DNA from: a virus
Reading direction: 5' to 3' (one strand)
IMG/VR virus record: IMGVR_UViG_3300031772_000013
Span: 1-64,000 of that record
DNA: 64,000 nt
The number at the start of each line of letters is the position of its first letter. The stretch's first letter is position 1. Shown piece by piece: positions 7,339-58,495 of this stretch. Made by a program: the position numbers and the translations under genes. The notes below the pieces were generated by a model. It saw only the letters and a program-made list of their open reading frames with translations. It was not told where the DNA came from and did not search any database.

Positions 7339-7824
7339 ATGGCGACCAGCAAAATGCACGCAAGACGACAGAGCGCCCCCAAGGGGCGAGGCGGCAGTTC
7401 AGGCGGGGCGAACCCCAGGAACGACGGCAGGATCAGCGAGGAGCAGCACGACGACGCGATGCGCGTGCTCCGCGCGGAGTATTACCAGGGCGTCCGGAGC
7501 CTCGCCCAGCAGGTCATCGAGCACATCGCGGAGGGCATGGACGAAGGCGACGCGCTTCACCAGGAGGTCGACAGCTCGTACTGGGTCATCTACACGCATG
7601 CGAACTTCCAGGTTCTCATGTGCTCGGATCACCACAACGCCTACTCGGAAGAGTACGGCGAGGCGCCGGTCGATGGATCGGACATCAACTGGGCCGGGCT
7701 CGCGTTCGCGGCGCTATCGCGTGATGTGAGCGATCAGATCGGTGCGGAGAGAAGCACGGTCGACGAGGCACGACGGCGCCCCATGCAGCGGCCCGGATCG
7801 CGCGCGACGCGCAGGGGCCGGTAA
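7339..7824 (+). CDS. Conserved phage protein
   Basis: This is a 161-residue protein. Residues about 38-120 (QHDDAMRVLRAEYYQGVRSL ... SSYWVIYTHANFQVL...SDHHNAY) resemble hypothetical proteins common in tailed phages. It has a basic N-terminus and a basic C-terminal tail (RPGSRATRRGR). Its 3' end lies at the left border of the 276-bp direct repeat, so the tail may derive from that recombination. Confidence 0.65.
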   Translation: MATSKMHARRQSAPKGRGGSSGGANPRNDGRISEEQHDDAMRVLRAEYYQGVRSLAQQVIEHIAEGMDEGDALHQEVDSSYWVIYTHANFQVLMCSDHHNAYSEEYGEAPVDGSDINWAGLAFAALSRDVSDQIGAERSTVDEARRRPMQRPGSRATRRGR

Positions 7825-8077
7825 GTAAGGTGGCCAACGTAGACGACACCGTAACCGCCGAATGGACGTGGGGCGGACACCGATTCAGCGCACACGGTGT
7901 CGTCACGAAGGTCAGCGGCAAGACAACCAAGGTCCGACTCACCGAACATGCCGGCGAACACTTCGCCCCGGGAGTCGTCGTGACGGTGCCGACAGAGAAC
8001 GTACGCAAGAAGGAAAAGACGATGGCAAAAACTCCACTGCATGGCCGACAGGCCCCCCGGCCGCGCATGAACGCGGG
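7802..8077 (+). repeat. Direct repeat, copy 1 (276 bp)
   Basis: This copy covers the end of the upstream gene and the first 82 codons of the next. It is about 97% identical to 9004-9280. In this copy the frame is intact and encodes an SH3/KOW-like domain (WTWGGHRFSAHGVVTKVSGK). An internal ribosome site and ATG (8022) follow. Confidence 0.9.
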
Positions 8078-8963
8078 CCGCCACATCGCTCCCGGCTACC
8101 CGGCGGAAAGGTTCCGCATCGGCCAGGACGTGGCGATGATCTCGAACCCCGGTCTGTTGGGGCACGTCGTGGGTTTCGATCCAGACGGATCGGTGATGGT
8201 ACAGTGGAGCGGCGGTCGAACAGTAACAGGAGTCGATCCGAGGAATCTCCGCGTCCAAGGTCGGGGTTACGCGGGGCGACGCGCTTCCGAGGCACCCAAG
8301 ATGAGCGGCGCCCAGCAGTGGCAAGATCGGATCCTTCGCAACGCGGACGACTACGCTGCGGGGCGTATCTCCTGGGACGTCTGGTCCGCGCGACAGAGCG
8401 AGATGTGGGAAAAGATCCGAACCAAGGGGCGGCGCCTGGTCAGCCAAGTTCTGAACTTGCAGTTCGAGACCGGATACAACTACTCACCACCTTATCCGGG
8501 CTCCGGCGTGAGCGAGGCGCGGCGCTCCAGCTCAGCGCGACCCTTGCCGGGGCGCCACCACTCGCGTGAGAGCAGCACTCCCTCGAAGCGCGACATCGAC
8601 GAGATGTTCGACGCCTACGTCGAAACGGCGCTGTGGTCTTCGACCGCCGAAGACGACACGCCGCTCGATCTCCTCGACGCCGAGGTCGCCGCCTCGGCGC
8701 TAGACAAGATGAGCAAGGACGTCGAGAGCTTCGCGCGCGAGAACGCGCACCTCATCGAATCGGCCGACGTGGCTACGCACCAGTACGGTCGCTGGGGGCG
8801 TGCGGGGCACGACTTCTGGCTCACGCGGAGCGGCCACGGCGCAGGGTTCTGGGACGGAGACTGGGAGCCGGAGGCAACAGCAGAGCGGCTCACCGACGCA
8901 GCCCATGCGTACGGCGAGACGTACCTGTACGTGGGCGACGACGGCATGATCTACTCGGACTGA
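7830..8963 (+). CDS. Modular phage protein (SH3-like plus conserved C-terminal domain)
   Basis: This is a 377-residue protein from GTG 7830. Its modules in order are: an SH3/KOW-like domain (about 1-60); a second SH3-like segment (RIGQDVAMISNPGLLGHVVG, about 92-130); a helical segment; and a C-terminal domain (GHDFWLTRSGHGAGFWDG ... LYVGDDGMIY) common in tailed-phage hypothetical proteins. The modules are separated by AGRRASEAPK (about 151) and SGVSEARRSS (about 229), which fit the linker motif found across this region. ATG 8022, preceded by AAGGAAAAG, could start a shorter product. Confidence 0.7.
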   Translation: MANVDDTVTAEWTWGGHRFSAHGVVTKVSGKTTKVRLTEHAGEHFAPGVVVTVPTENVRKKEKTMAKTPLHGRQAPRPRMNAGRHIAPGYPAERFRIGQDVAMISNPGLLGHVVGFDPDGSVMVQWSGGRTVTGVDPRNLRVQGRGYAGRRASEAPKMSGAQQWQDRILRNADDYAAGRISWDVWSARQSEMWEKIRTKGRRLVSQVLNLQFETGYNYSPPYPGSGVSEARRSSSARPLPGRHHSRESSTPSKRDIDEMFDAYVETALWSSTAEDDTPLDLLDAEVAASALDKMSKDVESFARENAHLIESADVATHQYGRWGRAGHDFWLTRSGHGAGFWDGDWEPEATAERLTDAAHAYGETYLYVGDDGMIYSD

Positions 8964-8978
8964 ACAGGAGAACCACGA

Positions 8979-9280
8979 TGCCAGACTTCGACTTTGACTC
9001 CGAGCGCGACGCGCAGGGGCCGGTAAGTAAGGTGGCCAACGTAGACGACACCGTAAACCGCCGAATGGACGTGGGGCGGACACCGATTCAGCGCGCACGG
9101 TGTCGTCACGAAGGTCAGCGGCAAGACAACCAAGATCCGTCTCACCGAACATGCCGGCGAACACTTCGCCCCGGGAGTCGTCGTGACGGTGCCGACAGAG
9201 AACGTACGCAAGAAGGAAGAGACGATGGCAAGAACTCCACTCCACGGCCGACAGGCCCCCCGCCCGCGCATGAACGCGGG
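8979..9280 (+). pseudogene. Frameshifted copy of the SH3-like domain
   Basis: An ATG at 8979 with AGGAG upstream begins MPDFDFDSERDAQGPVSKVA and enters the second repeat copy. One extra A (gtaaacc at about 9053-9057, versus gtaacc in copy 1) then shifts the frame, so the SH3-like domain is lost. Without the extra base the frame would join the downstream gene and give a protein of about 357 residues. It is either a real inactivation or an assembly error. Confidence 0.6.
9004..9280 (+). repeat. Direct repeat, copy 2 (277 bp, one-base insertion)
   Basis: This is the second copy of 7802-8077. It has about eight substitutions and one inserted A that breaks the reading frame of the encoded domain. 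The high identity points to a recent tandem-type duplication about 1.2 kb apart. Confidence 0.9.
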
Positions 9281-10052
9281 CATCGACGCCAACGAGGCCG
9301 CACACGGAACGACAAACTGGACCCAAGGCAAGCTCTACGGGTCCGACAGGGTTGCGCTGTTCGGACAGCGCGCTGACAGCGATCTCTGGATCGAGATCAT
9401 CGAGGGGGCGAGCGTAGCCTTCATCATCACGAAGATGCGCGATGCCGGCGAGCAGGGTGAGCGCGTCGTGAAGAAAGTCACGACCAACATCCGACAGACC
9501 GACCCCGACGCCGACCGTCTTGCTCGCTCTCTCGGGATGCCAGGGGCGGGCTACGCCATAGAGATCGGTGAGGGGCTACTTGGCTCCCGGCCCGCACCCC
9601 GGGGCCGACAAGCCCCCTCTCCAAACCCGTCGCGGGCGCGTGAGAACACGGGGCGGCCCCTGCCGAGGCCACCTATGCGTGCACGCGAGACGGACGAGCG
9701 CGAGTTCTCGATGAACTACGGCCAGCTCCCGCCGTTCGAGCAGTTCATGCGAGATATTCGGCGCCCCGATCCCGATCATTCTGGGCGGGCGTACTGGCCG
9801 AAGGGTGAGAAGTATTCGATGGAGCTAGTCACTCCACCCGAGATCGAACTCGCCGAAGCCTTCGGTCTCGAAGAGTTCAGGGCGGAGCGAGCGCGCACGG
9901 GACGTAACACCAGCGTGCGTGGGTTCAGAGACAACGAGAAGGCGATCTACGAATTTCTCGAATACCTCTCCGATAGGTGGGACAACGGCGACGATTTTGC
10001 CGGAGACCTCGCCTCTGGGATCATGACATCGCTCGGCTACGAGTGGATCTGA
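9225..10052 (+). CDS. Modular phage protein, frameshift-truncated N-terminus
   Basis: The start is taken at ATG 9225, which has AAGGAAGAG upstream; GTG 9183 is an alternative. This gives 275 residues. After a basic linker comes a domain (IDANEAAHGTTNWTQGKLYG ... IITKMRDAGEQGERVV), then a Pro/Arg-rich linker. The C-terminal domain ends WDNGDDFAGDLASGIMTSLG, a pattern seen in many tailed-phage hypothetical proteins. The intact ancestor probably started at 8979. The internal start would rescue this part after the frameshift. Confidence 0.65.
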   Translation: MARTPLHGRQAPRPRMNAGIDANEAAHGTTNWTQGKLYGSDRVALFGQRADSDLWIEIIEGASVAFIITKMRDAGEQGERVVKKVTTNIRQTDPDADRLARSLGMPGAGYAIEIGEGLLGSRPAPRGRQAPSPNPSRARENTGRPLPRPPMRARETDEREFSMNYGQLPPFEQFMRDIRRPDPDHSGRAYWPKGEKYSMELVTPPEIELAEAFGLEEFRAERARTGRNTSVRGFRDNEKAIYEFLEYLSDRWDNGDDFAGDLASGIMTSLGYEWI

Positions 10053-12501: not shown

Positions 12502-13707
12502 ATGACCCAAGAACACGACGCCGAGGCCGCAGGTTCAGAGTACGCCCAAGACCAGATAGAGAACGACTACTTCATGGGCTGGGTCCGCGAGCAGATGCTC
12601 GAGGCCAGCCGCATGGATCCGTCCACGGTGCTGCCGCTCGAAACGAAGAGCGACGCTCGCGTGATCGCGAGGAACATGCTCCAGCAGCTCGAAGAGGACA
12701 CGAAGCGCGGGCTCGACCCGCGCGAAATCGCGAACCTGATCGGGGTCGACGGCACGACGCGCGACGACGTCAAAGAGTTCTTCAAGGGGTTCCGGGGCGC
12801 GCTGGATGAGTCGCGCGACTGGCTGGCGGACGAGCTCCTGGAGATCAAGGGGGGGTTGCGAGGTAGGCGCATGAGCGAGGCACCGCGAAGTCGTACCCCG
12901 GCGAGCGATCTGAGCCGCCTACACAATCCGTCAACCGCTGGCAACATCATCGTCTCGAACCGCAAGGACTTCGATCGCCTGCTCATCGAACGCCTCGGAC
13001 AACTCGGCCGCCCGGACGCCGTCGAAATCGCCAGGGAGTACAAAAAACTGGCGGCGGCCTACTTCGGTGCGTCCAGAACGCCCGCTTCCACTGCGGATGA
13101 GATTCTGGATCTCGAACAACGTCGCCATGCGGGGCGACGGGGCGTGAGCGAAGCGAGTCGCTCCGGCGCGACGAAAGTCAAATGGGTTGCGAACGGATAC
13201 GACGACGGCTTTCACGCATCCGTCGGACGGTATTTTCTGAAGACCATGCCCGTCGGCGACGGGCGCTTCGTCTGGAGCGTGTCGAAAGGCACCAAGATCG
13301 TCGCGGGCTCTGAAGCCGTCGATCCGTCCTGGCACGGCGGCTACAAGGGCGATCCGTCGGAACACGGCGCGCGAGTCGCCGCCGAGCTTGCTATGACTCT
13401 TCACAAGACTCGCTCCTCCCGCACTGCTGCCGTGTCCGAGAGCCGACGTGGCCCCACCCCCGTCGAAGACCCCGAGTACGTCATTCAAGGCGCCTACAGC
13501 GACGGCCGCATCACGGAATCGTTCGGATTCGACGACGAAGACACCGCCCGCTCCGAAGCCTGGAAGCTCTCCAAGTCGCCCTACTTCGAGGGCGACCACG
13601 TCCGCATCATCACGCGCGACGGCGAGCTCGTGTGGGACTCGCGGGGCAGGGGTGTGAGCGAGGCCCGCCGCCCAAAAGCCCGTCGGCCGGTGCGGCGTCG
13701 GCGCTGA
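12502..13707 (+). CDS. Four-module protein with repeated SEA linkers
   Basis: This is a 401-residue protein starting at ATG 12502 after AGGAG. Four modules are separated by very similar linkers: RRMSEAPRS (about 124), RRGVSEASRS (about 215), AAVSESRRGP (about 311) and RGVSEARRPK (about 385). The linkers are alike in DNA as well as protein. The zero-frame protein ends RRPVRRRR. Near the end lies a slippery heptamer and hairpin (13671-13713) that could fuse it in the -1 frame to the ParB-like ORF. The module functions are unknown. The linker fits a hydrophobic-x-Glu|Ala prohead-protease-type site; this is inference. Confidence 0.7.
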   Translation: MTQEHDAEAAGSEYAQDQIENDYFMGWVREQMLEASRMDPSTVLPLETKSDARVIARNMLQQLEEDTKRGLDPREIANLIGVDGTTRDDVKEFFKGFRGALDESRDWLADELLEIKGGLRGRRMSEAPRSRTPASDLSRLHNPSTAGNIIVSNRKDFDRLLIERLGQLGRPDAVEIAREYKKLAAAYFGASRTPASTADEILDLEQRRHAGRRGVSEASRSGATKVKWVANGYDDGFHASVGRYFLKTMPVGDGRFVWSVSKGTKIVAGSEAVDPSWHGGYKGDPSEHGARVAAELAMTLHKTRSSRTAAVSESRRGPTPVEDPEYVIQGAYSDGRITESFGFDDEDTARSEAWKLSKSPYFEGDHVRIITRDGELVWDSRGRGVSEARRPKARRPVRRRR

Positions 13708-14105
13708 CCGGCCCGTACGGGTCGCAAGAAGAGATCCTCGACTACATCAACGAGACCGCCCCCTACCTAGGCGGGCTCTCGGATGTGCACACGCGCCTCA
13801 GTCTGTCCCCGGAGATGTTCAGGTGGAAGTTCCGCGAACTGCCCATCTCGAAGCTGCTGCACCTCAAATCTGATTGGCGCCGCTGGTACGAAGGTGAACG
13901 GGCAGAGCGCCGGGACGAAGACGGCGACGACAGTTACTTCGACGGGCTCGAACAAGAGTGGAACGATGGCATCGTGGGGCCGATCATCGTGGTGATCATC
14001 GACGGAGAGATCGACATCGGCGACGGTTGGCACCGAGCTGCGATTGCCGTGACGCAGGGGTGGAAGACGGTGCCGGCGGTGGTTGGAACGGAAAAGGACG
14101 TGTAA
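13632..14105 (+). CDS. ParB-like domain protein, possibly a -1 frameshift extension
   Basis: The C-terminal part (IVVIIDGEIDIGDGWHRAAI, then GWKTVPAVV) matches the ParB/sulfiredoxin-like fold motif (G-D-G-x-H-R with a following small helix and P-A-V). ParB-like domains bind nucleotides and DNA. No good start exists after the upstream stop. GTG 13632 lies inside the upstream gene, and the next ATG (13817) is far inside. Either the GTG is used, or the domain is made by -1 frameshifting at 13671-13677, giving a fusion of about 534 residues. Confidence 0.6.
   Translation: MGLAGQGCERGPPPKSPSAGAASALTGPYGSQEEILDYINETAPYLGGLSDVHTRLSLSPEMFRWKFRELPISKLLHLKSDWRRWYEGERAERRDEDGDDSYFDGLEQEWNDGIVGPIIVVIIDGEIDIGDGWHRAAIAVTQGWKTVPAVVGTEKDV
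13671..13713 (+). promoter_or_regulatory. Candidate -1 programmed ribosomal frameshift signal
   Basis: The heptamer C CCA AAA (13671-13677) lies in the correct frame of the upstream gene (codons CGC CCA AAA). After a 7-base spacer, GGCCGGT (13685-13691) pairs perfectly with ACCGGCC (13707-13713) around a 15-base loop. The zero-frame stop is at 13705-13707. A -1 slip would continue in the ParB-like frame to 14105 with no stop. All three expected elements are present. There is no direct proof of use. Confidence 0.5.
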
Positions 14106-14107
14106 GG

Positions 14108-15124
14108 GTGCTAGCCTCTGAAGAATTGTGGGATCTTTGGGGATCGTCTCACGAGTGGTCGAGCGCGATCACCGGAGCGAGCGCCGAGATACTTACCATT
14201 CCCGGCTATCGCGTCCCTGATGATCCTAACGCCTTCACTGCTGCCAGGGCCTTGCTTGAAGCGCTTCAGCGCTCTCCACGTTCCCGCAAGGCGCTCTGGC
14301 ACGGACGACCTCTCGAAAGGATCCCGAAGCCGGGGGAGCACGTCTCGCTCCCACTTACCGCAACAACCCCAGAGAAGAGCGAAGCGCTCCGTCTGAGCGC
14401 GCAAGGCGACACCCAGGCGCTCTTCACTTTTCCTGCGGGCACGCGCGCGCTACGGTACAGCGACATCGAACGGATCGTGGCAGGGCGATTTATCGTGCGC
14501 AAGGTTCGCCGGGAGACGGACCCCTACTGGGGGACGCTCATCGTAGTGGTACAACTTGAGGAGGACGCCACCGTGTACCGCCAACCCAAGGAGCCGGAAC
14601 CACGCGCGCTAGAGGAGACCGCCGATCAGCCGAACCCCTGGTATCACCTGACGGATCGAGCTAGGTTCAGGCTCGACCCCAGGTTCGCGCCGGAGGACAA
14701 CGCCATCGCCATCGTCGATCGCTCAGGGCGCCCCGGCATCTACCTCGGGCAGGACGTGGAACGATGGGTCAACGGCTACAACTACTGGCGGCCGTTCGTC
14801 GTCGAGTTCGACGTCGATCCGTCTGTGGTCGAAGATCCTGGCGTGCATGGGAGATACGGCGGCGAGATGTTCGTCCCCGCCACCTCGTTCGACAAGCTCA
14901 CCATCCTGCGCGTGATCCCGCTCGACGCCCACGCCCGGGAAGTGTTCGGGGAGGCAGGATGGATCGAGGGCGAGCTGGGGATCGAGTTCGACACCGGGGA
15001 TCCGATTCGGCCGGGGCACCGCTCCTACCGGGGCTACCGATACTCCGGGCCGGACGTGCGCGACATGCCGCCCTCACAGGTGAACCACCTGAAGCGCCAG
15101 CTACGACAGGTGAAACGCCAATGA
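14108..15124 (+). CDS. Two-domain ADP-ribosyltransferase-like phage protein
   Basis: This is a 338-residue protein from GTG 14108. The N-terminal domain shows an ART-like order: WHGRPLERIPKPGEHV, then LPLTATTPEKSEALRLS, then a strand-rich C-part. After ALEETADQPNP comes a second domain (WYHLTDRARFRLDPRFAP ... PGIYLGQDVERWVNGYNY), a pattern seen in phage proteins of the same broad fold. An ART would move ADP-ribose from NAD+ to a host protein. The Glu motif was not located securely, so the call is tentative. Confidence 0.5.
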   Translation: MLASEELWDLWGSSHEWSSAITGASAEILTIPGYRVPDDPNAFTAARALLEALQRSPRSRKALWHGRPLERIPKPGEHVSLPLTATTPEKSEALRLSAQGDTQALFTFPAGTRALRYSDIERIVAGRFIVRKVRRETDPYWGTLIVVVQLEEDATVYRQPKEPEPRALEETADQPNPWYHLTDRARFRLDPRFAPEDNAIAIVDRSGRPGIYLGQDVERWVNGYNYWRPFVVEFDVDPSVVEDPGVHGRYGGEMFVPATSFDKLTILRVIPLDAHAREVFGEAGWIEGELGIEFDTGDPIRPGHRSYRGYRYSGPDVRDMPPSQVNHLKRQLRQVKRQ

Positions 15125-50982: not shown

Positions 50983-52701
50983 ATGAAGAAGAGCCTACCG
51001 ATCAAGCGTGCCGTTTTCTGGCTCGACGGCGGCGCGCGCGTGCCCGGGTGGTCGACCGGCAAGACGTGGAACGGTTGGGGCGTGCCGCTGTTCGATGAGA
51101 GCCAGATCGAAGCGGCGAGAGCCGCGCTCCGAGCCGCTGGCATAGAGAGCGAGTTGCACAGCGGCGACATCTTGGAGCTCTGGCCCGTCGAGGAGCCCGA
51201 TCTGATCACTGAGCACCAGGCGATTCGACTCAAGGGGAAAACCTACTACTGGCAACTCGACGGCCTCACCTGGAACGAAGAGAGCTCGGGCGGGCGCCGC
51301 GCCGATGAGGCTAGCGCAGACGTCTGGGGCCACGCTCCATTGCCTGAGTCGATGTTAAGGGATGTGGCGCGCGATCTTCGTCGCTTGAACAATATGACGT
51401 CCTCGGCGGCGTTTCGTGAAGGCACTAAACTTCGCGTCTATCTTCAGCTCGCGGACGACGGGACTTGGGGGATCGGAGACCGCGAACCCACGTCCGGCCG
51501 ATGGGGCTCGGCGGCCATACCTGGAAACAACCGCCGATTCAACGCCACCGCCGTTGCGCGCGATCTTCTCGCGCAGGTCGAACGAGATAGCCATGCCGAG
51601 GAGAGACACATGCGCGAAGACAACAAGAAAGGCCCTTTTTTCGTGACGCTCTCGGCAGCGCCGAATCGTGACTTCGGACCAGGGAGCCACGAGGCGTCAG
51701 TCAGAATCCCTCCTCGGAAGCAGAAAGTGGTGAGCCTCGCCTACGCTTCGAAGGTCGTGCAGCGCTTCATCGCAGAACATGATCTAGGCAGCGGCAACTG
51801 GACAGGCGGACTCATCACTGATGCTTCGGGGAAGGCGATCGGCCGTGTCGCCTACAACGGGCGCATCTTCGATCTCGATGACAAGATCATGTGGGACAAC
51901 CAGACCTCTCCGGGCGTGCGCGAAGACCGGTTCGAGATCCCGGGCTGGATCGCCGCAGTGGGGTGGAGTGGAGTCGAGTGGGTTGTGTACGGTATCGGAG
52001 AAGACGAAGACGAAGCTGCTGCCGACGCCAGAAATTGGACGGAGACGCCGTGGCTTACGTTCTTGCCGATTTCCAAAGATCAGATCGCGGCCATGGGTGA
52101 CCACAAAGAGGAGAACCGATGCGCCGCAATCGGTCTCGATGTCGGCAACGCCAGCCGTACGGCTCCGCGACATTTGCGCGCCGAAGAACATCGCGTGCGC
52201 GAAAGCCGGTTCGAGATCCCCGGCTGGAGCGTCGGGTACCACTCCGAGATCAGCGCTCACGCCGCAGTTCGAACGGGCAGGGGGCGCGACTGGCTCTTTG
52301 TCATGACGACGCCCGAGGACCGAGAGCCGCGGAGCCTCGACGAAGAGGTGACGGTCGGGCTCTACTTCTTCGACGGAGACGACTGGGAGCAGATCGCGTA
52401 CGTCGACTTCCCCGACGTCCGTTCGGTGATCAAACTGGGCGACGCAGAACTCCACCTCGTCATCGAGCACGGACTGTCGCTGGATCAATCCCGCGAGCTA
52501 CTCGTCCAGGAGTTCGACGACTGGGACGGCGAAGACACGCTCACGTCGTGGATGCAGACGATCCTCAAGGATGCTGGCGTAGAGCCGGAGGAGGCGGGCG
52601 CAGATGCCGCCACGCACGAGGCTACCGAGCAAATCTACAACGCCTCTCCAGCGCAGATCCTCGAGTACATGGACGAGCGATCGAAAGCCCTCAACGAGTG
52701 A
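50983..52701 (+). CDS. Multi-module phage protein
   Basis: This is a 572-residue protein. Its modules are an N-terminal domain; a helical segment; a domain with VVQRFIAEHDLGSGNWTGG and GKAIGRVAYNGRI common in tailed-phage proteins; and two blocks starting VREDRFEIPGW (about 312) and VRESRFEIPGW (about 406). The junctions carry ADEAS, MREDN, VREDR and VRESR, close to the linker motif of the 7830-15942 proteins. ATG 51610, with GAGGAGA upstream, could start a shorter form. No enzyme was recognised. Confidence 0.65.
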   Translation: MKKSLPIKRAVFWLDGGARVPGWSTGKTWNGWGVPLFDESQIEAARAALRAAGIESELHSGDILELWPVEEPDLITEHQAIRLKGKTYYWQLDGLTWNEESSGGRRADEASADVWGHAPLPESMLRDVARDLRRLNNMTSSAAFREGTKLRVYLQLADDGTWGIGDREPTSGRWGSAAIPGNNRRFNATAVARDLLAQVERDSHAEERHMREDNKKGPFFVTLSAAPNRDFGPGSHEASVRIPPRKQKVVSLAYASKVVQRFIAEHDLGSGNWTGGLITDASGKAIGRVAYNGRIFDLDDKIMWDNQTSPGVREDRFEIPGWIAAVGWSGVEWVVYGIGEDEDEAAADARNWTETPWLTFLPISKDQIAAMGDHKEENRCAAIGLDVGNASRTAPRHLRAEEHRVRESRFEIPGWSVGYHSEISAHAAVRTGRGRDWLFVMTTPEDREPRSLDEEVTVGLYFFDGDDWEQIAYVDFPDVRSVIKLGDAELHLVIEHGLSLDQSRELLVQEFDDWDGEDTLTSWMQTILKDAGVEPEEAGADAATHEATEQIYNASPAQILEYMDERSKALNE

Positions 52702-54426: not shown

Positions 54427-54769
54427 GGGGCCGATCGGTTTCGACGCTGGAAAGGAGAACCGTCTCGCGTGCAAGAGCGCCCATCTCTTCAAGGGGCATC
54501 TGCTAGTTGCCAACGACAACAGCATCGCTCTGCCCGTCCAGAAGGCGGCCTGAGCCGTCGGGCTAGGAAGATCGTCCTGGTACCAAGTCCGGCGCAATCA
54601 CTAGGGCTGGCTCATCGAGAAGCCTCGAGTAGATGAGCGAGGATCACACGAGAAGTAGGGCGCGGCCGAATCCGCGAACTCAGCCGGCGGGGACACGCCG
54701 GCTACGCACGTGAACGAGAGACGCTTCAACTTCTAACGGACCGGGGTTCGATTCCCCGCGGCTCCACCG
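54427..54769 (+). ncRNA. ssrA: Transfer-messenger RNA (tmRNA)
   Basis: GGGGCCG at 54427 pairs with CGGCTCC (54759-54765) to form the acceptor stem, with one G-U. TTTCGACG gives the D-like segment. A T-arm CGGGG-TTCGATT-CCCCG lies at 54742-54758. CGTCTC (54461-54466) and GAGACG (54718-54723) form helix H2. UAGUU precedes the resume codon GCC at 54509. The 3' end is A-CCG, so CCA is not encoded and must be added. It rescues stalled ribosomes and tags their products. Candidate promoter hexamers TTGCGC and CATCAT precede it. A terminator follows at 54825. Confidence 0.92.
54509..54553 (+). other. tmRNA tag reading frame
   Basis: The internal frame encodes ANDNSIALPVQKAA followed by TGA. It starts with the usual AND-type opening after UAGUU. 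Most bacterial tags end in LAA or ALAA, recognised by ClpXP and ClpAP. This one ends QKAA and has a longer, Pro- and Lys-containing body, so its degradation signal may differ. Confidence 0.85.
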
Positions 54770-55185: not shown

Positions 55186-55779
55186 TTACGGGAAGGCCCC
55201 GAGCGTGCCGGTCCCCGCCTGCGTAACGCTCGCTCCGGCAATCTCGCTTGCCTTGAGCCAGCTTCCCGGTACGGACGTGAAGCCATCCGATCCGTTGATC
55301 ACGATGAGCGGGAGGTTCGCGTTGTTGTAGGGGACCGCGATCGTTGCCTTGGTCGCCCCTACGGGGATCCGCACAGATGAAAGACTCCGATAGGTCTGGA
55401 AACCGGGTGCCATGTCCCCGCCCGCGACGCTATTCACGATCATCAGGAAGTCGGCGGGGAACACTGGAGCGGCAACGAAACTCACTGCGACCCCAAACGA
55501 GAACTCGTGATTCGCGTTCGGAACGTCAGGGTTCTGCACGTTCAAACTCACATCGACCTCAAGGAAGTTCCCTGGAGTGACGACGGGGAGCACGACCCGA
55601 AGCGGCACGGTGCCACTCGGGTTACTTGGAATCTCGGTATCGAACGGGCCGACCGTCGCCGGCAGCGTGCGCGTTTTCTCAACCTGCGCATATCCGACCT
55701 GGATGAGGCCGCCGCCGCCACCAGAGCGCTCAGGGTACGTCTCGGTCGCGTATCGTCCCTTGCCGATGACTCTGCTCAT
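55186..55779 (-). CDS. Beta-rich putative virion protein
   Basis: This is 197 residues with an N-terminal Gly-rich part (YPERSGGGGGLIQVGY) and then regular beta strands (VPLRVVLPVVTPGNFLEVDV, FSFGVAVSFVAAPVF). The style is that of phage head-decoration or tail proteins. No specific family was recognised. Confidence 0.5.
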   Translation of the reverse strand: MSRVIGKGRYATETYPERSGGGGGLIQVGYAQVEKTRTLPATVGPFDTEIPSNPSGTVPLRVVLPVVTPGNFLEVDVSLNVQNPDVPNANHEFSFGVAVSFVAAPVFPADFLMIVNSVAGGDMAPGFQTYRSLSSVRIPVGATKATIAVPYNNANLPLIVINGSDGFTSVPGSWLKASEIAGASVTQAGTGTLGAFP

Positions 55780-55896: not shown

Positions 55897-56418
55897 ATGT
55901 CAGACGACGACTATCGGATGGAGCACCAGGCGCCTGACGCGGAGAGCGGCTCGCCACTCTACGACGTCACGCTAAACGGCACGTACCCTCGAGATTTCTA
56001 CGATCGCCCGAGCTGGTATCTTTCCGGGCACGATTCCGACTGGGAGGCGATCGGGATCATCAGGGCAAGCCTCAACAAACCGGACAGGCGGCTTTGGATC
56101 TACCGCGCAGTTCCGCGTGGCGTCCGCAACTTCAACACGGGTGACTGGGTATCCATCACCAAGAGCTACGCGCGGGACCACGGGAGGCATCCGACAGACA
56201 CGGAGCAGGACATGCCCGTACTCGCCGCGCGAGTATACGCGCACGACCTCTACACGAGCGGCGATTCGCTTCAGGAGTGGGGCTACGTGGGGCCGACGAA
56301 AGAAGGTCTGGTGGTGTTCCGTCCGCGCAAGAAGCCCAGCGAGGAGCAGATTGAAGCGAGGAACGTTGCTAGACGAAGCGCCTCTTCGAGAGCGCGTGTC
56401 GCGAGGTGGAGAGACTAG
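55897..56418 (+). CDS. ADP-ribosyltransferase-like phage protein
   Basis: This is 173 residues from ATG 55897. LWIYRAVPRGVRNFNTGDWV (R motif), SITKSYARDHG (S-T-S-like motif) and YTSGDSLQEWGYVG (Gln-Glu near the end, Q-x-E region) reproduce the pattern of phage ART-fold proteins. Expected function is transfer of ADP-ribose from NAD+ to a host target. It overlaps the convergent ParB-like gene by four bases. Confidence 0.65.
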   Translation: MSDDDYRMEHQAPDAESGSPLYDVTLNGTYPRDFYDRPSWYLSGHDSDWEAIGIIRASLNKPDRRLWIYRAVPRGVRNFNTGDWVSITKSYARDHGRHPTDTEQDMPVLAARVYAHDLYTSGDSLQEWGYVGPTKEGLVVFRPRKKPSEEQIEARNVARRSASSRARVARWRD

Positions 56419-57680
56419 TCTCGCCCCACCACAACGACAGCCGGGAACTCCCTGGCCTTCAGATGCCAGAGCGCAACGAAGCGGTGTGCCCCCTCGATGA
56501 TGAACGGCCCCTTCTCGTCGATGCCGATGATGAGCGGGCTGATCTCGCCAGAGCGCCCGATCAGCTCGGCCAGGCGCTCGCTCCGCTCGAAGTCGTCCGC
56601 GGCGTAGAACACCGAGCGCGGGTTGCCGAGGTCGGACATCGGCACGACGCGAACGCCCGGGAGCTCTTCCTGCTCCTCCATGTAGTCGTCGATCGATTCG
56701 ACGTTCGGAACGTCTTTGCGCACGAGGCGCCCGTCGACGTACTCGCCAGCTCGTGGGTAGCGCGAGCCTGTCGATTCGATCAGGGATTCGAGCGAGGTCG
56801 CCTCGCGCAATCCGAATGGACGGCTCTTCTGCCCCCACAACGCTTGCGCCGCCTCCGTGTGGGGCTCGTCCGGGAGAAAACTGAGCCCCGATAGTTGCTC
56901 CGCCCACACGTAGAGCTCCGTCGCGATCCCCTGCCGACGGTATTCGGGGCGCACCTCGATGGCGCCCTTCAGCGTTTCGTCCGAAGGACGCTCTCTCCCG
57001 TAGAACAGGGAGCCGACGACCTTGTTTCCATCGACCGCGATGATGGTGGCGTAGCCGCCCTTGTGCGGAAGCCAGTGCATCTCGTATCCGTTGAACGGTT
57101 TACTCTTCTGAGCGCGCCTCAACGAGTCCCGCAAGGAGTCGTCCAGGGCCGCCCACTTGCGGGGGTCATCGCTTGGGCCTGATTCGCGCATCTCACCTGC
57201 GCCGCGCTCGACGAGAAACACGGCCGGGATGCTCTTCCAAGCCATTCCGATCGCGTAGCTGACCCTGCCACGCCCGTCGCCGATGGCGGTGTCCCCGTTG
57301 CGGAGCGTCACGACGACGATGGGAGGCACGGTGCGGGGCGTCCACTGGACAGCGCGCTTGGCCCAGGCCGCCCCTCGGAACGAGTGTAGTTCAAGGACAC
57401 GGTCTTGCTCGTCGAGTTCCTTGAGATCCCCGTGCCGCCATTCGGGCCACGAAGAGAGATCGTCGTAGATGCCGAGTTCCTTGAGCGACACGACGCGGGA
57501 TTCGATGGCGAAGTCGTCAAGGTTCAGCTCGTGCTCGCTGGAGTCACTCATGTGATCCAGAGCGTCCGCCAAGTCTTGCGGATCGGCCTCGATGCTTTGC
57601 GCTGGCTCTCGCATCGTCGCGACTGAGCGGCGAGTGAGCTGGCTCCCTTTGGGTTCGATTCGGTAGTAGAGCTTGGGCAT
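56415..57680 (-). CDS. ParB-like / GNAT / ParB-like fusion
   Basis: This is 421 residues from ATG 57680. After VATMREPAQS (about 21-30) comes a ParB-like domain ending GDTAIGDGRGRVSYAIGMAW and KSIPAVFLV. RGAGEMRESGPS (about 161-172) leads to a GNAT acetyltransferase domain (AIEVRPEYRRQGIATELYVW). FGLREATSLES (about 290) precedes a second ParB-like domain (FIIEGAHRFVALWHLKAREF then PAVVVV). Each domain is flanked by M/L-R-E|small-residue motifs, as in the modular proteins on the left. Confidence 0.7.
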   Translation of the reverse strand: MPKLYYRIEPKGSQLTRRSVATMREPAQSIEADPQDLADALDHMSDSSEHELNLDDFAIESRVVSLKELGIYDDLSSWPEWRHGDLKELDEQDRVLELHSFRGAAWAKRAVQWTPRTVPPIVVVTLRNGDTAIGDGRGRVSYAIGMAWKSIPAVFLVERGAGEMRESGPSDDPRKWAALDDSLRDSLRRAQKSKPFNGYEMHWLPHKGGYATIIAVDGNKVVGSLFYGRERPSDETLKGAIEVRPEYRRQGIATELYVWAEQLSGLSFLPDEPHTEAAQALWGQKSRPFGLREATSLESLIESTGSRYPRAGEYVDGRLVRKDVPNVESIDDYMEEQEELPGVRVVPMSDLGNPRSVFYAADDFERSERLAELIGRSGEISPLIIGIDEKGPFIIEGAHRFVALWHLKAREFPAVVVVGRD

Positions 57681-57685
57681 TGTTT

Positions 57686-58495
57686 TCACACGAACGTGAA
57701 GACGACCTCTACCGAGTCGTCTTTGGCGCGACGAGCGGCGACGAGACGGTGGTTGCCGTCCACGATCCACCCGGACCCGTTCTGAAAGACGCCGATCTCG
57801 ATGGGCGGGAGCCAGACGCCCTCGCCGCGCGCCTGTTGCACCGATCGCAGTCGCGCCTTGTCGATGGCGGTCGCGCGCAAGCTGTTCAATTCCTCCAGAG
57901 GGACGATAGCAGACACGGTCCAGTAGTCGCCGACCAAGTGGTACGACGGCGGCCCGTACGCCGAACGAGGGGAACCTCGATCTGGATCTGCCGGCAAGGA
58001 CCGGTACTTGTCGAAGGGGCCTTGTTTACGAGCGGTCGTCTCGCGCATCTCACCTGCACCACCTTCGTCACGCCAGCGCGCGTCCTCGACGACCGCGACA
58101 AACTCGCTCTCCGGCATGAACATCTCGATCGCGCAGTCGCCACGGAAGTGCGCGGCGAGAACGCGATGGTTTCCGTCCTGCACGTACGCTTTGCCCGACC
58201 GTCGCCGTTGCGAACGCCCTCCGTAGGAGGCGGTCCCGGGCGGAAAGGGCGTGCCCCGAGCTGCGTACCGCCTCGCGCGCTCGACGCGCTCCTGACTCGA
58301 TTCTTCTTCGGTCTGGAAGTCCAGGTAGTCGAGCGGCACGGTAGCGCGCACCCAGATCGGGCCGCGATCAAACATCCACTCATACATGGCGGGATCGGGG
58401 GGCGCCCCGTGACGTCCGCGCGCGTAGAGGCGCTGGTAACTGTCGACGACGTCGTGGACGTCGAGCCGCTCGATGATGGCGAAGTCGCACGTCAT
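57686..58495 (-). CDS. Tandem ParB-like domain protein
   Basis: This 269-residue protein has two ParB/Srx-like domains. The first contains V(Q)DGNHRVLAAHFRGDC with a leading strand VRATVPLDYLDF. The second contains WIVDGNHRLVAARRAKDD with leading strand VSAIVPLEEL. They are joined by GGAGEMRETTARKQGP, nearly the same linker as in the neighbouring fusion protein. The DGNHR motif is the nucleotide-binding core of this fold. It overlaps the upstream gene by ATGA. Confidence 0.7.
   Translation of the reverse strand: MTCDFAIIERLDVHDVVDSYQRLYARGRHGAPPDPAMYEWMFDRGPIWVRATVPLDYLDFQTEEESSQERVERARRYAARGTPFPPGTASYGGRSQRRRSGKAYVQDGNHRVLAAHFRGDCAIEMFMPESEFVAVVEDARWRDEGGAGEMRETTARKQGPFDKYRSLPADPDRGSPRSAYGPPSYHLVGDYWTVSAIVPLEELNSLRATAIDKARLRSVQQARGEGVWLPPIEIGVFQNGSGWIVDGNHRLVAARRAKDDSVEVVFTFV

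Follow-up and report, generated by a model that had tools for sequence, protein, structure and literature searches.

The G/GT tail-assembly chaperone of phage lambda arises through a -1 slip shortly before the first frame ends, and this arrangement is conserved over divergent phages. The locus described here is similar in that a candidate -1 slip lies near the end of a first frame and is kept across divergent viruses, but it differs in lacking chaperone-family similarity and in having downstream modules that are mutually unrelated. The accounts of phage frameshifting consulted concern tail chaperones, coat proteins and a small number of other genes (PMC5009743, PMC10885494), and simultaneous slippage on X_XXY_YYZ heptamers is the established model (PMC5009743). 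C-terminal extensions of coat proteins made by frameshifting are found in T7/T3 gene 10, Lactobacillus phage A2 and Listeria phages A118/A500, and they vary even among close relatives, with an Ig-like extension in T3 but not in T7 (PMC5009743). As in the coat-protein systems, a single gene here would yield two products, the less abundant of which bears an additional C-terminal domain. However, those systems extend a coat protein, often with an Ig-like domain, whereas the protein that would be extended here is an array of small domains ('beads') and the extensions are of the ParB/sulfiredoxin (ParB/Srx), winged helix-turn-helix (HTH) and other types.

The polyvalent proteins of phages and conjugative elements, such as P1 DdrB with its ParB domain, are multidomain, rapidly shuffled and proposed to be packaged; the survey that describes them makes no mention of frameshifting (PMC5512222). 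The proteins described here are likewise multidomain and shuffled and include ParB/Srx-type domains, a likeness that does not extend, on present evidence, to packaging, a metallopeptidase (MPTase) hub domain or membership of the DdrB-like ParB family. A preliminary description of the locus had remarked that frameshifting is well known in tail-chaperone genes and not in a gene of this kind. In line with this, no chaperone-family similarity was found, and the phage examples in the literature consulted lie mainly in tail-chaperone, coat-protein and transposase genes. Tail families had no match in the genes on either side of the array, in a virus group whose structural genes are hardly recognised by PHROGs. 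Judged by its sequence, the gene is not a tail-chaperone gene.

The candidate slip site and its gene in the window

The DNA analysed here (the window) comprises positions 1-64,000 of the 75,451-bp IMG/VR virus record IMGVR_UViG_3300031772_000013. Its gene at 12502-13707 (+) encodes 401 amino acids, starts at an ATG preceded by CAGGAG and ends in the basic tail VSEARRPKARRPVRRRR followed by the stop codon. The protein consists of beads split by SEAxR linkers on the same strand, namely MSEAPR (12871-12888), VSEASR (13144-13161), VSESRR (13432-13449) and VSEARR (13654-13671), which place the bead boundaries at residues 123, 214, 310 and 384. Its N-terminal domain shares 50-52% identity with the counterparts in records G003 and G005, most beads have no database match, and the zero-frame protein matched no PHROG or Pfam family. 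The next gene, at 14108-15124 (+), starts with GTG and encodes 338 amino acids.

At the end of the last linker, the slippery heptamer C_CCA_AAA (13671-13677, +) lies in the phase of the 12502-13707 gene, where the zero frame reads GAG GCC CGC CGC CCA AAA GCC CGT CGG CCG GTG CGG CGT CGG CGC TGA. The heptamer is the start of the 10-mer CCCAAAAGCC (13671-13680, +). A 7-nt spacer (13678-13684, +) separates it from a hairpin (13685-13713, +) with a perfect 7-bp stem, formed by the arms GGCCGGT (13685-13691) and ACCGGCC (13707-13713), and a 15-nt loop; an alternative register, common to the relatives, pairs 8/9 positions. The zero-frame stop TGA (13705-13707, +) spans the loop and the 3' arm. The arrangement exceeds what chance would give: in these genomes, 0.7% of randomly chosen positions have a perfect Watson-Crick stem of at least 7 bp at this spacing. 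In this virus, CCA makes up 13% of proline codons and AAA makes up 23% of lysine codons. The -1-frame module (13671-14105, +) has 144 codons open to 14102 and its stop at 14103-14105, and the predicted fusion has 392+142 = 534 residues. The preliminary description was accurate on all of these elements: the in-phase C CCA AAA, the 7-base spacer and perfect hairpin, the zero-frame stop within the structure, the -1 frame open to 14105 with a fusion of about 534 residues, and the position of the ParB-like module directly behind VSEARR.

SEAxR-type linkers of the form [VLM]xE-A[RPS]R lie in the window at 7759, 8508, 10452, 10734, 12871, 13144, 13432, 13654 and 15136. They were also seen at bead boundaries in the related loci L022, L027, L015 and L032, and at the start of an Arg-rich protein of 563-571 amino acids in L023 (6633) and L033 (16783). 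Because the linkers look like phage maturation protease sites of the LxE|A type ([VLM]xE|A), the prohead protease PF04586 (S78 family) was sought; it was not found, and processing at the linkers therefore stays speculation. Elsewhere in the window, a direct duplication of ~280 nt (7799-8078 and 9001-9281, 96-98% identical, 1.2 kb apart) covers the start of the gene at 7830, and a tmRNA is encoded at 54427-54769 (+; Rfam RF00023, 117 bits, full length), for which ARAGORN gives the tag ANDNSIALPVQKAA. A paralogous family with IGxGRYAxxTYP-like starts has several members per virus (window 55186-55779 (-); L019 8757-9536 and 11963-12532; L023 15300-19278), and none of the databases searched gave it a name.

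Relatives and conservation of the signal

Direct searches with the ParB module or the 12502 protein gave no relatives, so relatives had to be reached through the DNA polymerase and an array domain. The polymerase gene retrieved seven virus records with 59-76% identity, the sequence of which was read in stretches, and four of the seven have the same arrangement: L022 (G003), L032 (G002), L015 (G007) and L027 (G005). A profile of the unrelated array domain A3 ('DFN...GYWH') retrieved 15 loci, including six further carriers of the signal that were obtained independently of the heptamer (L051, L052, L053, L062, L063 and L064). We group the 15 loci into 12 lineages, and nine of these have the signal. 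The array is present without the signal in L055-57, where there is a basic tail only and no module, in L058/L059, and in L061, which has an L052-like module. Searching viral contigs with the polymerase profile added just three distant members, searches of bacterial and archaeal genomes gave no relatives, and DNA-pattern scans returned three known sites, one chaperone-like gene and nothing more. In a different virus, a tail-assembly-chaperone-like gene (L040 7314, IMGVR_UViG_2671180090_000001) has an identical CCCAAAAGCC (CCCAAAA) before a -1 extension. In L027 (G005), the zero frame is broken upstream of the slip site, at ~10400, by an apparent one-base indel that is either a mutation or a contig error. 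Among the probable structural genes of L023 (G003 60001-80000), ten large proteins gave one DNA-repair match and weak endolysin matches in PHROGs.

The exact CCCAAAAGCC stands at the same place in the window and in ten other virus records, with C_CCA_AAA in the zero-frame phase in 11/11. It is the sole run of ten invariant columns in the 11-row alignment, and each carrier record holds exactly one copy; L058/L059 hold one other copy, antisense to the array. After the slip, the zero frame continues as PKA and a basic tail (consensus PKAKRSARRRR and a stop) that ends 11-12 codons past the slip in nine cases, after 23 in G005 and after 28 in L052, and the -1 frame reads PKS and extends over 49-358 codons. 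All 11 sites have a stem of 7-12 bp (G-U allowed) that begins 5-7 nt downstream, versus 4.3% of random positions for stems of at least 7 bp. Conservation of heptamer plus hairpin had been proposed in the preliminary description as a check, and it was found in 11 records, together with the basic tail and a start-less open -1 frame. The same comparison bears on whether the two frames are one continuous gene split by a sequencing or assembly error or by a recent indel. That reading is suggested by one virus record in which the -1 frame continues directly, and G005 does seem to hold an unrelated indel; however, 11 independent contigs are split identically at this 10-mer and conserve the zero-frame tail and stop, so that the ten other records refute the reading and leave it a negligible probability.

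The sequences of the stems vary, with arms GGCCGGT/ACCGGCC in the window, GGCGACG/CGTCGCC in G007, CGGTCAGCG/CGCTGACCG in G002 and L063, GAGGTCGGCGAA/TTCGCCGACCTC in G005 and GGCGTCGCAC/GTGCGGCGCC in L052. Compared with shuffled sequences, hairpin energies gave z-scores of -3.9 to -4.9 in G002, G003 and G005 and were just moderately below the shuffles in G007 and G000 (z -1.2 to -1.6). When the 11 rows are aligned in a single register, 80% of cells pair, versus 18-53% when the register is slid. In-register covariation in this alignment was not above shuffles, a result of the common stem being largely shared and of four sites having their own stems or registers. A covariance model trained on the 11 sites recovered all of them, as it should, with E-values no higher than 1e-5, and its next match (0.011) lacks the heptamer. 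A putative second frameshift site in G002 (L031 6685) proved to be a chance match. Across these genomes CCA accounts for 11-14% of proline codons and AAA for 23-39% of lysine codons, and C CCA AAA encodes 16 of 326 Pro-Lys pairs (123,285 codons). Nine of the 16 are the array cases in that gene set; each of them precedes GCC close to the end of its ORF, unlike the other seven.

Identity, coding status and starts of the added modules

The window module matched the profile PF02195 (E=0.013, 16.0 bits), below the curated cut-off of 26.3, and its other profile matches were weak and confined to ParB-like and DNA-binding families. Foldseek searches with a structure model of the module (pLDDT 66, pTM 0.59) gave ParB or sulfiredoxin as the top PDB and BFVD matches (best E 1e-2 and 2.6e-6, respectively), and the top BFVD matches include ParB/Srx proteins of phages. 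A ParB/sulfiredoxin-type fold is thus supported for the window module, weakly by profile and through a model of moderate confidence. The ParB-like domain claimed in the preliminary description therefore stands for the window by fold match, with a weak profile, but does not extend to the relatives generally, since three of the 11 carriers have ParB/Srx-type modules and four have winged HTH modules. By alignment, a related ParB-like type is also present in G005 and at the end of L053. The winged HTH modules belong to G003, L062, G007 and L051, where L062 and L051 are assigned partly because they are 72% identical to G003 and 59% identical to G007, respectively. The modules of L052, L063 and L064 received no such assignment. 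In G002 the module is a short remnant of 49 codons. The beads upstream of the site vary between carriers as well, and the constant part is the linker plus the signal.

Codon log-likelihood was tested in five cases and favoured the -1 frame in each. In addition, pN/pS of the -1 modules was 0.28 for G003/L062, 0.44 for G007/L051 and 0.36 for G005/L053, versus 1.1-1.9 in the other frames. By these measures, the -1 frames code for protein and evolve under purifying selection. Homologues in a single frame were also found. In L058/L059, a lineage without the signal, a 12502-type domain is fused in one frame to a G003-type winged HTH module, and the trans-frame product therefore corresponds to a real domain order. 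Within the window, a paralogue of the ParB-like core lies in frame at 57204-57347 (-; 40% over 48 aa), a homologue of the G005 -1-frame module (69% identical) forms the end of the gene 56415-57770 at 56418-56798 (-), and a homologue of the L064 -1-frame module lies at 52189-52410 (+; 46% over 81 aa). Two findings in relatives had been named beforehand as evidence against frameshifting: fusion of the two frames, or a proper start between them. Fusion was found, in the signal-less L058/L059 lineage and with the same pair of domains as in G003, where it is supportive; a separate start was not, as no carrier has a plausible start with a Shine-Dalgarno sequence before the module.

The preliminary description had also held that the window's -1 frame has no good start of its own, and this was borne out. 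GTG 13632, upstream of the slip, and the first ATG/GTG/TTG past it, at codon 38, both lack a Shine-Dalgarno sequence; in the 11 carriers, no ATG/GTG/TTG with such a sequence was found close to the module start. Alternatively, translational coupling might yield the ParB module as a protein of its own, with terminating ribosomes restarting at a CTG that shares bases with the zero-frame TGA (CTGA, 13704-13707). The TGA overlaps a -1-frame CTG at eight of the 11 sites, but CTGACC doubles as the 3' arm of the shared hairpin, and the overlap is missing in G005, G007 and L052. No Shine-Dalgarno sequence precedes the CTG, whereas genes near the site start with ATG or GTG, several with a recognisable one (e.g. 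12139, 12502). Restart would also leave the invariant CCCAAAAGCC, the hairpin spacing and the one-frame fusion in L058/L059 unaccounted for, and we judged it very unlikely. A further reading takes the 10-mer as a recombination junction or a protein-level linker with decaying or silent modules downstream. Variation of the modules on either side among viruses and the linker common to the carriers would fit this, yet the -1 frames are under purifying selection, the register is always -1 and never +1, the hairpins are retained, and the synonymous choice CCA AAA GCC is fixed although CCA is so rare a proline codon; we consider this reading just as improbable as the CTG restart.

Predicted minority form and a possible portable junction

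The candidate -1 programmed frameshift of the preliminary description is supported by the conservation in 11 records, the hairpins and the coding -1 frames. On this sequence evidence, we are confident that the site is a conserved -1 programmed frameshift signal, through which a minority of the product would gain a further C-terminal module. On the 12502 gene, translating ribosomes would meet C_CCA_AAA with the hairpin 7 nt ahead. The majority would read on and stop within 10 codons, giving 401 residues with an Arg/Lys-rich tail. With the hairpin as stimulator, the tRNAs on CCA AAA may slip -1 simultaneously, and the minority of ribosomes that moved back one base (CCC AAA) would make 534 residues, with the ParB/Srx module behind a VSEARRPK linker; the expected trans-frame peptide is SEARRPKSPSAGAAS. 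Since SEAxR linkers sit at bead boundaries, the long form would simply have one more bead on the string. Slippage in the host, how often it happens, what the long form does and the presence of a DNA-acting domain in the minority form are our inferences.

The signal is identical whatever modules flank it, and it therefore behaves like a portable junction at which a C-terminal module is added in sub-stoichiometric amounts. It is somewhat favoured that the locus is a portable cassette, in which upstream and downstream modules are recombined into a fixed SEARRRPKA / CCCAAAAGCC / hairpin junction and a DNA-acting module comes behind it only as a minority extension. In the open-licence literature, we found no earlier description of a signal that is conserved while modules of this kind are swapped around it. 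Where gene finders end these genes at the zero-frame stop, the last module is missed or given a wrong start, and the 11 natural variants of one signal are usable in reporter work. Conservation of the signal while the modules on either side are swapped suggests selection for stoichiometric dosing of a module rather than for a particular protein.
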